DNA of 64,000 nt, taken from Chrysiogenes arsenatis DSM 11915 (GTDB lineage Bacteria > Chrysiogenota > Chrysiogenetes > Chrysiogenales > Chrysiogenaceae). Positions 52,796-57,221 of this stretch are shown piece after piece (position 1 is the first letter of the stretch; the number at the start of each line of letters is the position of its first letter). Below the pieces are notes generated by a model that saw nothing but the letters and a program-made list of their open reading frames with translations, ran no database searches and was not told the DNA's origin. Made by a program: the position numbers and the translations under genes. The stretch spans positions 246,178 through 310,177 of the forward strand of contig NZ_AWNK01000006.1 in NCBI RefSeq assembly GCF_000469585.1. Direction: 5' to 3'.

Positions 52796-53911
52796 CTACA
52801 GCGACGCCTCATACAGTTCGCACAGCTCATCGTCGCTTAACGCCCGCTTGCGTTCATTTGCCAAGCGGCGGATCTGCGGCATAATTCCATTCACCGAATG
52901 GCGATCCGCAACAACCCCCCGCTGATGCAGTCGATGAATCACTCCCTGCGTTCCGCTGTGCGATCCCACCACAATATGGCGCTGCATCCCGAGCACTTCC
53001 GGTGGAAATGGCTCATAGTTCGCTGGATTTTTCAGGACGCCATCGGCGTGGATACCTGATTCGTGCGTAAACATCAGTTCGCCAATCACCGGGCGATACG
53101 GCTCTATCGTCCGGCCAGAAGCCGCCGCCACATACTGTGCTAACGAGCGCAGATCAGCAGTATTGTACGTTACGGGCTGCTGATACACGTAGCGAAGCGC
53201 CATAATAATCTCTTCGAGTGGCGCATTTCCCGCCCGTTCACCCAAGCCAATAACAGTGGTATTGATGTGCGTCGCTCCGGCTTTCACTGCCGCCAGCGCA
53301 TTGGCTCCCGCCAAACCAAAGTCGTTATGCGTGTGAATTTCGACCGCCAGCCCTGATTCGGCAATCAAACTCTTCACCGCATCATAGGTAGAGAACGGAT
53401 CGAGAATACCGACGGTATCGCAATAGCGAAAGCGCGCTGCACCGTGCTCCTTGGCGGCCTTAGCATACGCAATGACAAAGTCAAGCGGTGCCCGAGACGC
53501 ATCCTCTCCGCCAACGGAAACATACAGATTTTTCGTCGCACAAAAATCGAGTACGCGCCGCAGTTGGTCAATCACCCACGGCGGTGTTTTCCCAAGTTTC
53601 GACGATATTTGAATTTCTGAAAGCGGCAGGGATATCTCCACCGAGGTCGCGCCAGCATCGAGTGACGCTCGAATATCACTGATAACCGCGCGATTCCATG
53701 CGAGCAGTCTCGCTTTCAACCCCAAATCAGTCAACGCGCGAAAGGCTTCCTGCTCATCATCACCCATCACGGGAATACCTGCTTCGATCTCTTCCACGCC
53801 AATCGCATCAAGGCGACGCGCAATTTCAAGTTTATCGGCAAGGCTGAAAGCTACGCCTGGGGTTTGTGCCCCATCGCGGAGCGTTGTATCGTCGATAGTG
53901 ACCGGACCCAT
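52796..53911 (-). CDS. nifV: Homocitrate synthase NifV
   Basis: A 371-residue DRE-TIM enzyme that condenses acetyl-CoA and 2-oxoglutarate to homocitrate, the organic part of FeMo-cofactor. DTTLRDGAQTPGVAF, LPLSEIQISSKLGKTP, RFRYCDTVGILDPF and HTHNDFGLAGANALAAV are NifV-like. The LeuA-type regulatory domain is absent, as in NifV. ATG 53911 behind AAGGAG; a longer reading starts upstream of this site. A -24/-12 promoter lies 31 bp or so upstream and a NifA site beyond it. Confidence 0.93.
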   Translation of the reverse strand: MGPVTIDDTTLRDGAQTPGVAFSLADKLEIARRLDAIGVEEIEAGIPVMGDDEQEAFRALTDLGLKARLLAWNRAVISDIRASLDAGATSVEISLPLSEIQISSKLGKTPPWVIDQLRRVLDFCATKNLYVSVGGEDASRAPLDFVIAYAKAAKEHGAARFRYCDTVGILDPFSTYDAVKSLIAESGLAVEIHTHNDFGLAGANALAAVKAGATHINTTVIGLGERAGNAPLEEIIMALRYVYQQPVTYNTADLRSLAQYVAAASGRTIEPYRPVIGELMFTHESGIHADGVLKNPANYEPFPPEVLGMQRHIVVGSHSGTQGVIHRLHQRGVVADRHSVNGIMPQIRRLANERKRALSDDELCELYEASL

Positions 53912-53951
53912 ACCATCTCTCCTTGGTGAACGAGTTCTTATGGAAAGACAA

Positions 53952-53967
53952 TACAATCCCCATGCCA
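53952..53967 (-). promoter_or_regulatory. Sigma-54 (-24/-12) promoter of nifV
   Basis: On the minus strand TGGCATGGGGATTGTA: GG and G of the -24/-12 pair are spaced correctly; only the last C of -12 is T. It would start transcription about 31 bases before the nifV ATG. NifA site 54032-54047 lies about 65 bases further upstream. Confidence 0.7.
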
Positions 53968-54031
53968 CGAGCTATCCTACCTAGATAGACTACGTTACAG
54001 GAAATTCAATTACGACATATCCAACATGTCA

Positions 54032-54047
54032 TGTCAATAAACTGACA
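54032..54047. promoter_or_regulatory. NifA upstream activator site shared by nifV and nifB
   Basis: TGT-N10-ACA, here also a longer dyad (TGTCA-N6-TGACA). It lies about 65 bases from the nifV -24 element and about 97 from the nifB one, both usual distances. Being palindromic, it can serve both directions. A 9-bp inverted pair, CTGACAATG (54042-54050)/CATTGTCAG (54067-54075), overlaps its edge. Confidence 0.8.
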
Positions 54048-54143
54048 ATGCTGACACGAACAACGCCATTGTCAGCCTCGCGTCCACGACAGAGATCCAT
54101 CCAGCGACCAGCAAACTACGATAATAAAAAGGCGTAAGCCAGA

Positions 54144-54159
54144 TGGCATTGCCGTTGCT
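54144..54159 (+). promoter_or_regulatory. Sigma-54 (-24/-12) promoter of nifB
   Basis: TGGCATTGCCGTTGCT fits the TGGCAC-N5-TTGCW consensus at all but one position. Transcription would begin near 54170, 27 bases before the nifB ATG at 54197. The in-frame ATG at 54143 is part of this promoter and cannot be the start. Confidence 0.8.
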
Positions 54160-54196
54160 CTACTGCTTCGCATCCTGTTACCCATTGGAGGTTTCC

Positions 54197-55153
54197 ATGC
54201 AGCCAGTTCTCCCACAAGATGCCGCCGCGATTGCCGAGCACCAGCGGATTCGCGCTCAGATAGAAAAACACCCCTGTTACTGTAAATCAGCGCACACCAA
54301 ATTTGCGCGCATCCACCTGCCGGTAGCGCCGCGCTGCAATATTCAGTGCAACTACTGCAATCATAAGTACGACTGCTCCAACGAATCGCGCCCCGGCGTC
54401 ACCAGCTCCATTCTCTCGCCACAAGCCGCCATCGAACGTCTGAAAATGACGATGGAGCAAGTACCAAACCTCAGCGTTGTCGGCTTTGCCGGCCCCGGTG
54501 ATGCCCTCGCCAACCCCGAAGAGGTCTTTGCCACCGCCAGCATGGTACGAAGCCTGAACCCGGATCTCATCCTTTGCCTGAGCACCAACGGCCTCGCTCT
54601 GCCAGAGCTGGCGGATGAAGTCATTGCCCAGAAGTTCGGCCACGTTACCGTTACCATGAATACCATCAATCCAGCGATTGGTGCTGACATCTACCGTTGG
54701 GTCAAAGATGGCACTATCACCTTGCACGGCGAAGAAGGCGCAGCGCTCTTACACGAACGGCAACTCGCTGGCATTCGCCGCCTCACCGCCGCTGGAGTAC
54801 TCGTCAAAGTCAACACGGTTATGATTCCTGGCATTAACGACACCGATATCCCCAACGTCGCCAGCACGATTAAAGCCGCTGGCGTCTTCATCCACAATAT
54901 CATCCCACTGATTTGTCAACCGGAACACGGAACCGTTTTTGGCGAAATGGGGATTCGCGAACCGCAACATCAAGAGATTGTGGCCGTCCGCAAAGCCTGC
55001 GGGGTTATTATGGGCGGGGCGGATCGCGTGATGAGCCACTGCAAACAGTGCCGTGCCGATGCCATCGGCATGCTGGGAAAAGATATTACGCTCAACCAAC
55101 CCGCCGCCCATGGTGGCTGCAAAAAACAAGGCGATCAGAAGATCGCCGGATAA
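54197..55153 (+). CDS. nifB: FeMo-cofactor biosynthesis radical SAM protein NifB (core only)
   Basis: A 318-residue radical SAM enzyme that builds the carbide-containing NifB-co precursor of the nitrogenase cofactor. The SAM cluster motif is CNIQCNYC (C-x3-C-x2-C), preceded by HPCYCKSAHTKFARIHLPVAPR and followed by CNHKYDCSNESRPGV. Near the end, MSHCKQCRADAIGMLG supplies the other conserved cysteines. It lacks the NifX/NafY-like C-terminal domain found on longer NifB proteins. ATG 54197 behind GGAGG. First of a nifB-mop-nifA series. Confidence 0.95.
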   Translation: MQPVLPQDAAAIAEHQRIRAQIEKHPCYCKSAHTKFARIHLPVAPRCNIQCNYCNHKYDCSNESRPGVTSSILSPQAAIERLKMTMEQVPNLSVVGFAGPGDALANPEEVFATASMVRSLNPDLILCLSTNGLALPELADEVIAQKFGHVTVTMNTINPAIGADIYRWVKDGTITLHGEEGAALLHERQLAGIRRLTAAGVLVKVNTVMIPGINDTDIPNVASTIKAAGVFIHNIIPLICQPEHGTVFGEMGIREPQHQEIVAVRKACGVIMGGADRVMSHCKQCRADAIGMLGKDITLNQPAAHGGCKKQGDQKIAG

Positions 55154-55173: not shown

Positions 55174-55461
55174 ATGAAAATGCACAACCATCACCTTATT
55201 CGCGGCACCGTTGAAGATTTAAGCGTAGGCCATGCCATGGCGAGCGTTACTGTCCGTTCAGGCAAACGACTGATCCACATGATGCTCACCACAGGCGAAG
55301 CCTTCCGCGCCGGCGTCGAGTTAAACCGCGACATTTACTGCCTGATTGAAGGGAAAAGCGTCACCCTTTTTCGCGATGCCAGCGAGTACTTTCGCCTCTT
55401 TGCGCGCAACCACCAAGTGCTGGAATGCTCCGTCGCTCACGACAAAGTGCACAGTTTCTAA
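55174..55461 (+). CDS. Single Mop-domain (molbindin-like) protein
   Basis: A 95-residue protein. RGTVEDLSVGHAMASVTVRSG and YCLIEGKSVTLFRD resemble one Mop/TOBE-like unit, the fold that binds molybdate or tungstate as multimers. It lies 20 bp after nifB, before nifA, so molybdate storage or sensing for nitrogenase is a reasonable inference. Start ATG 55174 is eight bases behind GGGAG; the ATG at 55168 is too close to that site. About 30 residues longer than minimal molbindins at its C-terminus. Confidence 0.75.
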   Translation: MKMHNHHLIRGTVEDLSVGHAMASVTVRSGKRLIHMMLTTGEAFRAGVELNRDIYCLIEGKSVTLFRDASEYFRLFARNHQVLECSVAHDKVHSF

Positions 55462-55467
55462 GCGAAT

Positions 55468-55506
55468 TGTCACAATAGCGACACCACCACTGTCACAGAG
55501 CGAACA
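55468..55506. promoter_or_regulatory. Two tandem NifA upstream activator sites before nifA
   Basis: TGT-N10-ACA occurs at 55468-55483 and again at 55491-55506, 23 bases apart. They are 43 to 66 bases upstream of the nifA -24/-12 promoter. Two sites in register suggest NifA activates its own gene. Confidence 0.7.
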
Positions 55507-55548
55507 ATCATGTACGTAACTATCTCATGAATAATACGATGCGAGTTT

Positions 55549-55564
55549 CGGTTCACTCATTGCA
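55549..55564 (+). promoter_or_regulatory. Sigma-54 (-24/-12) promoter of nifA
   Basis: CGGTTCACTCATTGCA: GG and TTGCA are perfectly spaced; the -24 half is weaker than in nifB. Predicted start near 55575, 27 bases before ATG 55602, the same leader length as for nifB. Confidence 0.65.
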
Positions 55565-55601
55565 GTTTCGTAACGACACGGCACTTCAGAAAGGTGAAAC
55601 C

Positions 55602-57221
55602 ATGGAAACACGCAGTAATTACTACAAGCTGGCACTCGAAACAGTGTATGAAGTCAGCAAAGTGCTCTCATCGAATTACCAATGCTCAACAACTATGCAA
55701 GGCGTTCTCAGCATTGTCTGCAATAACCTGAATATGCGACGCGCCATGATTATGCTTTACGACGATGAAACGCGTGAACTTACGCTGAAAGCTTCCGTTG
55801 GCCTTTCAACGAATATGATCGGCGCGCTACGCTACCGCTTGAACGAAGGGGTGGTCGGTAAAGCATTCCGCCACGGCATGTCGATTCTTGTTCCCGATAT
55901 TTCCGACGAACCAGGCTTTTTAAACCGCGTCGAACGCGAAATGAGCGACGAAAAACTCAGCTTCTTGGCAGTTCCAATCAAAGAAGGCTCCAATGAGTAC
56001 GGCGTTTTGACTGTCGACAAACCAACTGCCGAAATTTTCAGCTATTCAACAGAGTTTGACATGCTAAAAATGATCGCAACGTTGATTGCCTCGTTTTTAC
56101 GCAAGTCAAATTTTATCACCCATGAATGGCAACAAATCGGCGCCGAGCGCGACCGCCTCAGTCAGGAAGTACTCGGGCGCTTCCGTATGAGCGGACTCAT
56201 TGGGCGCGGCAAAAACATGCGCAAAGTGTTCGAGCAGATTCAACTCATGTCGCGCAGCCGCTCCAACTGCCTGATACGCGGCGAATCAGGCACCGGCAAA
56301 GAGGTGGTCGCAAAAACTATTCATTATAACTCTGCCCGCTCCCACAAACCGTTTGTTGCCATTAACTGCGCGGCTATCCCCAAAGAACTCTTGGAAGCGG
56401 AATTATTCGGGCATGAAAAAGGGGCGTTTACGGGAGCCTTAGCGCGTCGCAAAGGGAAGTTTGAACTCGCTGACGGCGGCACACTTTTTCTCGACGAAAT
56501 CGGGGATATGCCGCTCGATGCGCAAAGCAAGCTGCTGCGCGTCCTTCAGGAAAAATCACTGGAACGCGTCGGTGGTAACGAAGTGATCCCCGTTGATGTC
56601 CGCGTCATCGCTGCCACCCATAAGCCACTGGAAACCATGGTGCAAGAAAAAACCTTCCGGCTCGACCTCTACTATCGCCTCAACGTCCTGATCATCGAAC
56701 TCCCCCCACTGCGCGAACGGCGCGAAGATATTCCCCTACTTGCCCAACATATCGTCGATAAAATTAACAACACCTACGAAATGCAGCTCAAGATCGCGCC
56801 ACAACTCTTTGCACCGCTGAGCCGCTGCTGCTGGCCGGGCAATATTCGCGAACTGGAAAACTGCTTGGAGCGCGCTGCTCTCAATGCTACCGATAACATC
56901 ATCCGCACTGCCGACCTGCTCTGTGGCCGACACGAACCATGCCCTTCGCAGATTATCGGCCATGCCACGAATGATGCCATCGCGCCGCAGGTGGCAACTC
57001 TAAAGCACAGTAATGCCATCAGTGCTGCTAAAAAAGTTGATCATAGCGAGCCAAACCATGAGCGGATGCGCTTTGAACAAGGTGACGAAATAGAAGCGGT
57101 CAGCCTCGCCCTGCGCCGCTCAGGGTACGTGCAAGCCAAAGCCGCCCGCACCCTAGGTATAACCGTCCGCCAACTGCGATACCGGATTCAAAAATACTCC
57201 ATCGAAGTGAAACGCTTCTAA
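55602..57221 (+). CDS. nifA: Nif-specific sigma-54 activator NifA
   Basis: A 539-residue activator: GAF domain (about 25-165), AAA+ domain (about 205-430; GESGTGKE Walker A, GAFTGA sigma-54 loop, GTLFLDEIG) and a C-terminal Fis-type HTH ([19 protein letters not shown]). The interdomain region has Cys409, Cys421, Cys441 and Cys447, spaced C-x11-C-x19-C-x5-C, close to the C-x11-C-x19-C-x4-C of oxygen-sensitive NifA proteins. Direct redox sensing without NifL is therefore likely. ATG 55602 follows AAAGGTGAAACC; ATG 55527 would lie upstream of the predicted transcript start. Confidence 0.93.

Follow-up and report, generated by a model that had tools for sequence, protein, structure and literature searches.

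The head-to-head arrangement of nifV and nifB in Chrysiogenes arsenatis DSM 11915 raises the question of how the two genes are switched on from the region between them. This question was addressed in a 64,000-nucleotide stretch of DNA (the window), in the remainder of the genome and in related genomes. The first-pass annotation had proposed control by NifA and sigma-54 in both directions, a proposal that was strongly supported by sequence and comparison; a divergent NifA/sigma-54 control region, with a circuit that may well be self-amplifying, is very probably the best explanation of the locus. The gene identities nifV and nifB assigned in that annotation both scored above the curated NCBI cutoffs, and its coordinates and letters for the palindrome and both promoters proved exact. 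The features concerned were as follows.

52796-53911, minus strand: nifV, homocitrate synthase (TIGR02660, 484.3 bits, cutoff 462.9); probable start ATG 53911, preceded by AAGGAG at 53924-53919 as read from the sequence
53912-54196: proposed control region, separating nifV (minus strand) from nifB (plus strand)
53967-53952, minus strand: predicted sigma-54 -24/-12 promoter facing nifV, TGGCATGGGGATTGTA; transcript start predicted at about 53941
54027-54074, strandless: presumed NifA enhancer of five TGTCA/TGACA half-sites, starting at 54027, 54032, 54043, 54052 and 54070
54032-54047, strandless: palindromic NifA-type upstream activator sequence TGTCAATAAACTGACA, that is TGT-CAATAAACTG-ACA, by sequence match
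54144-54159, plus strand: predicted sigma-54 -24/-12 promoter facing nifB, TGGCATTGCCGTTGCT; transcript start predicted at about 54170
54197-55153, plus strand: nifB, short form (TIGR01290, 393.4 bits, cutoff 343.65)
55174-55461, plus strand: small protein gene, with homologues near nifB in every nifB locus compared
55602-57221, plus strand: nifA (TIGR01817, 561.5 bits, cutoff 528.85); probable start ATG 55602, from the N-termini of relatives G001 and G002, the longest frame running from 55527

In the proposed mechanism, the region 53912-54196 would act as a divergent control region dependent on NifA and sigma-54. NifA would bind the central TGTCA-N6-TGACA, probably together with neighbouring TGTCA half-sites, and would then contact RNA polymerase-sigma-54 waiting at the two outward-facing -24/-12 promoters. 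The minus-strand promoter would transcribe nifV from about 53941, and transcription from the plus-strand promoter, starting at about 54170, would cover nifB, the small TOBE-like gene and nifA.

The two promoters were the only matches to TGGCAYN5TTGYW in the 64-kb window, where 0.47 were expected; at least two matches anywhere were obtained in 7 of 100 shuffles. Relative to TGGCAYN5TTGCW, the nifB element had no mismatch and the nifV element had one, at the C of the -12. The activator site at 54032-54047 lay at about -138 to -123 with respect to the predicted nifB start and at about -106 to -91 with respect to that of nifV, within approximately 150 bp upstream of each, in agreement with the earlier claim that it stands at the usual distances from both promoters. 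No IHF-like site within one mismatch of the consensus was found in the nifV-nifB region of the window, and sigma-70-type promoters and terminators there came close to what shuffled sequence gives. In three relatives (G007, G011 and G005; L063, L065 and L066), a perfect IHF consensus, TATCAATAACTTA, separated the NifA-type site from the nifB promoter.

The position of the nifB promoter bears on where the gene begins. The first in-frame ATG, at 54143, overlapped the -24 element and would be excluded from a sigma-54 transcript, since the predicted start at about 54170 lies downstream of it. The ATG at 54197, which is 54 bases later, was preceded by GGAGG (54187-54191) with a five-base gap. It lay 53 bases past the first base of the -24 element; the corresponding distance was 38 to 44 bases in the seven relatives measured. 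In G002, an in-frame ATG was again located inside the nifB -24 element. The earlier suggestion that the nifB promoter contains the first in-frame ATG, 54 bases too early, was borne out by the GGAGG upstream of ATG 54197 and by the N-termini of relatives, and ATG 54197 is the supported start. The nifV side appears to mirror this problem, a point missed in the first-pass annotation: the longest nifV frame opened at GTG 53968, at nifV's own -24 element, and the correction to ATG 53911 would hold equally. No NifX domain was found in NifB, in which Radical_SAM was the sole Pfam match. The small protein encoded at 55174-55461 had no Pfam or NCBIfam match and was judged TOBE-like by eye only.

In 15 of the relatives compared, which belong to several families, nifV and nifB were head to head. 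With 0-1 mismatch, a level reached in about 0.7% of shuffled half-regions, the nifB sigma-54 element was present in all 15 and the nifV element in 13. The position of the sigma-54 elements was therefore conserved. The palindrome appears not to be universal, because no perfect match to TGT-N10-ACA was found between nifV and nifB in four of the five g5 genomes despite perfect sigma-54 elements on both sides; in G004, which is one of these four, TGT-N10-ACA was present at nifH. Between nifV and nifB, a single NifA-type site was observed in the window and in G002, as well as in several further relatives, and double sites, one by each promoter, were observed in four relatives (57 bp from the nifV -24 element and 44 bp from the nifB -24 element in G003, G005 and G011; 51 and 45 bp in G007). 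The spacing between the NifA-type site and the nifB -24 element was 96 bp in the window and 43-45 bp in seven genomes. In G001 the order was nifB-TOBE-like-nifA-nifV in one direction, with nifV last, so that nifV would stay with nifB by a different route.

These results bear on the earlier statement that one NifA site serves both genes. It was correct in that the nifV-nifB intergenic region of the window holds one full TGT-N10-ACA, and a perfect palindrome with five-base arms (TGTCA-N6-TGACA) occurred once in the window. The TGT-N10-ACA pattern by itself is weak evidence: there were 16 matches in the window against 13.25 expected, and it was not enriched genome-wide (431 places against 435 for a reversed-pattern control). 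The five TGTCA/TGACA half-sites that crowd the 48 bp from 54027 to 54074 were matched in 1 of 20,000 shuffled versions of the region and formed the densest such cluster of the window, with a maximum of two per 48-bp stretch elsewhere; comparable clusters were found in the same genome at the nifH and nifEN/ferredoxin-nifZ promoters. With one palindrome and five half-sites here, and from zero to two separate sites in the relatives, a single shared NifA site is not established and would seem too simple a description.

The alternative that survives best is an enhancer in the form of an array, in which separate NifA dimers on TGTCA half-sites serve each promoter, as the two-site relatives suggest. 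The density of the cluster, its counterparts at the other nif promoters and the paired sites in G003, G005, G007 and G011 favour this arrangement, but the window has only the one full palindrome, and the remaining half-sites, which are candidate NifA sites by sequence, form no pairs at the known spacing. We put its chances somewhat short of even. More tentatively, and with some doubt, it may be that the Chrysiogenaceae have, as their NifA enhancer, a compact array of TGTCA half-sites instead of a single TGT-N10-ACA, so that one cluster fires two divergent operons, one of them encoding NifA.

At the level of sequence, the claim of paired sigma-54 promoters held in full for the nifB promoter, which matched the consensus, and in part for the nifV promoter, which lacks the consensus C at -12 (TTGTA, with T in place of C, compared to TTGCW). 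Its counterpart was TGGCATCGGGATTGAA in G002, with TTGAA at -12, and TGGCAC-N5-TTGCA in most f2 relatives. The nifB side might be the sole working NifA/sigma-54 promoter, with nifV weakly driven or otherwise transcribed and its -24/-12 element decaying. The replaced C is nearly invariant, G002 is likewise off consensus, and nifV belongs to the nifB operon in G001. However, NifA-regulated promoters of M. loti, nifH among them, have been listed with TTGAA and TTGAT (PMC3538637), the nifH promoters of the relatives compared had TTGAT or TTGTT at -12, the -24 half was kept in both the window and G002, and the nifV element was perfect in most f2 relatives. A working promoter on the nifB side only is unlikely. 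Because such -12 sequences occur in M. loti and at nifH of relatives, TTGTA is compatible with function at nifV, perhaps at lower strength.

Evidence from the whole genome (2,825,161 bases on 22 contigs) was obtained from pattern searches and selected stretches. RpoN was encoded once, by the one Sigma54_DBD protein, so that NifA and RpoN are both present in this genome; contig 22 carried nifHDK and contig 13 carried nifEN. TGT-N10-ACA occurred 70-100 bp upstream of TGGCNYN5TTGC at three places genome-wide (control, none), including nifB and nifHDK, and 40-70 bp upstream of a looser promoter pattern at five places (control, one), including nifV and ferredoxin-nifZ. Four of these eight joint matches (40-100 bp) were therefore nifB, nifV, nifHDK and ferredoxin-nifZ, and the combination of a NifA-type site with a downstream sigma-54 element is rare and mostly found on nif genes. 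The third of the 70-100 bp matches, at C13:12953, was rejected as a chance occurrence, since it lay inside a gene that read as peptidase-like on the opposite strand.

On contig 13 (L069:9750-10220), nifEN faced a ferredoxin gene and a NifZ-like gene across a second head-to-head control region, in which sigma-54 elements pointed to either side and a single TGT-N10-ACA was accompanied by five TGTCA half-sites; its nifEN side carried TGGCAATTCTTTTGCT, as read by eye. Since this region has sigma-54 elements in both directions, the genome appears to have two head-to-head nif control regions of like design. A further site, TGTCATGATTGTGACA with an extra half-site (C4:227810; L138:2311-2326, about 18 kb before the window), was set aside because it had no sigma-54 element; it lay upstream of a gene that read as a chemotaxis receptor. 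Half-site triples at the end of contig 1 and in contig 10 were discarded as 24-base tandem repeats. These repeat arrays (TGACAGCTTCGGTTGGAGCTTCGG) extended over 430692-431344 of contig 1 and from 60047 onward in contig 10, with one of the two at a contig end.

The TGTCA cluster might also be bound by a sigma-54 activator other than NifA, a reading that is in keeping with the dozen or more sigma-54 activators encoded by relatives and with arms longer than the minimal TGT/ACA of NifA. Against this, the sites do fit TGT-N10-ACA, half of the joint matches in the genome are nif promoters and nifA is encoded just downstream; we regard a different activator as very unlikely. Finally, a chance coincidence of short motifs can be dismissed, because although chance would produce the palindrome by itself in about 9% of cases (a rate of 0.09 in 20,000 Markov shuffles of the intergenic region, compared to 0.00015 for the nifB element and 0.00185 for the nifV element), none of the 20,000 contained all three elements and the recurrence of the layout in relatives contradicts it.

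Control by NifA and sigma-54 from the nifV-nifB region would extend to the activator itself. The nifA gene is two genes downstream of nifB, and its product had GAF, AAA+ and HTH_8 domains (Pfam). NifA-type proteins were found in the relatives, and the DNA-binding helix was conserved where it could be aligned, the C-terminal helix of the window's NifA (TVRQLRYRI) being shared with relatives; only rows that aligned in the right orientation and frame were used. The portion of NifA encoded at 56800-57000, which covers the end of the AAA+ domain and the linker, had cysteines in the arrangement C-X11-C-X19-C-X5-C, kept in several relatives. We take these to resemble the oxygen-sensing cysteines of rhizobial NifA.

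The following elements were located directly upstream of nifA.

55468-55483, plus strand: TGT-N10-ACA site TGTCACAATAGCGACA, by pattern match
55491-55506, plus strand: TGT-N10-ACA site TGTCACAGAGCGAACA, by pattern match
55548-55565, plus strand: possible weak sigma-54 element for nifA, TCGGTTCACTCATTGCAG (GG-N10-GC), with a poor -24

Close TGT-N10-ACA pairs occurred twice in the genome and also twice in the control, so the significance of the pair at 55468-55506 rests on its position. Neither such a pair nor the GG-N10-GC element was found upstream of nifA in G001 and G002. The sites at 55468-55506 suggest a NifA-responsive promoter of nifA's own and may form an additional, local feedback loop. 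Feedback of NifA through the nifB promoter is likely. The circuit would probably be self-amplifying through nifA, since nifA lies downstream of nifB and NifA-type sites lie upstream of nifA.

Proteobacterial nif promoters that depend on NifA and sigma-54 combine a TGT-N10-ACA enhancer with a TGGCACG-N4-TTGCW promoter (PMC4999443, PMC7294313, PMC3538637). The nifV-nifB region resembles them in both types of element, in their order and distance (enhancer no more than about 150 bp from the start), in the activator family and in the target genes. It differs in that its host is a deep-branching anaerobe, in that the TGTCA arms of its enhancer are longer and further half-sites are present, and in that the enhancer is flanked by two head-to-head operons. 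In the nifH-pnfA region of Pseudomonas stutzeri A1501, divergent NifA/sigma-54 genes likewise share intergenic -24/-12 and TGT-N10-ACA elements (PMC2820453); the genes are different, and the likeness is to the text description of that region, not to its site-by-site layout. Self-activation of nifA through an upstream NifA-dependent operon is known from fixABCX-nifA of S. meliloti and from R. leguminosarum UPM791 (PMC3538637). As in those bacteria, NifA would here activate the promoter of an operon that includes nifA as a downstream gene, but the operon would be nifB-TOBE-like-nifA, with the pair of sites directly upstream of nifA in addition.

No description of nif regulation was found in a search of the literature on the Chrysiogenota group, genome papers included. 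Judged by its sequence, the nifV-nifB region appears to use an ordinary, known mechanism, of which it would be a new and solid example in a little-studied phylum. The findings to retain are the half-site clusters, the nifEN region, the corrected gene starts given for nifB, nifV and nifA, and the conserved head-to-head layout with its varying number of enhancer sites. For the latter, the relatives, with none, one or two sites between the same promoters, provide a natural series in which the evolution of shared enhancers may be followed. For nitrogen fixation in the Chrysiogenota and the Denitrovibrio-like relatives compared, the proteobacterial NifA/sigma-54 logic is indicated, down to its letter-level elements.
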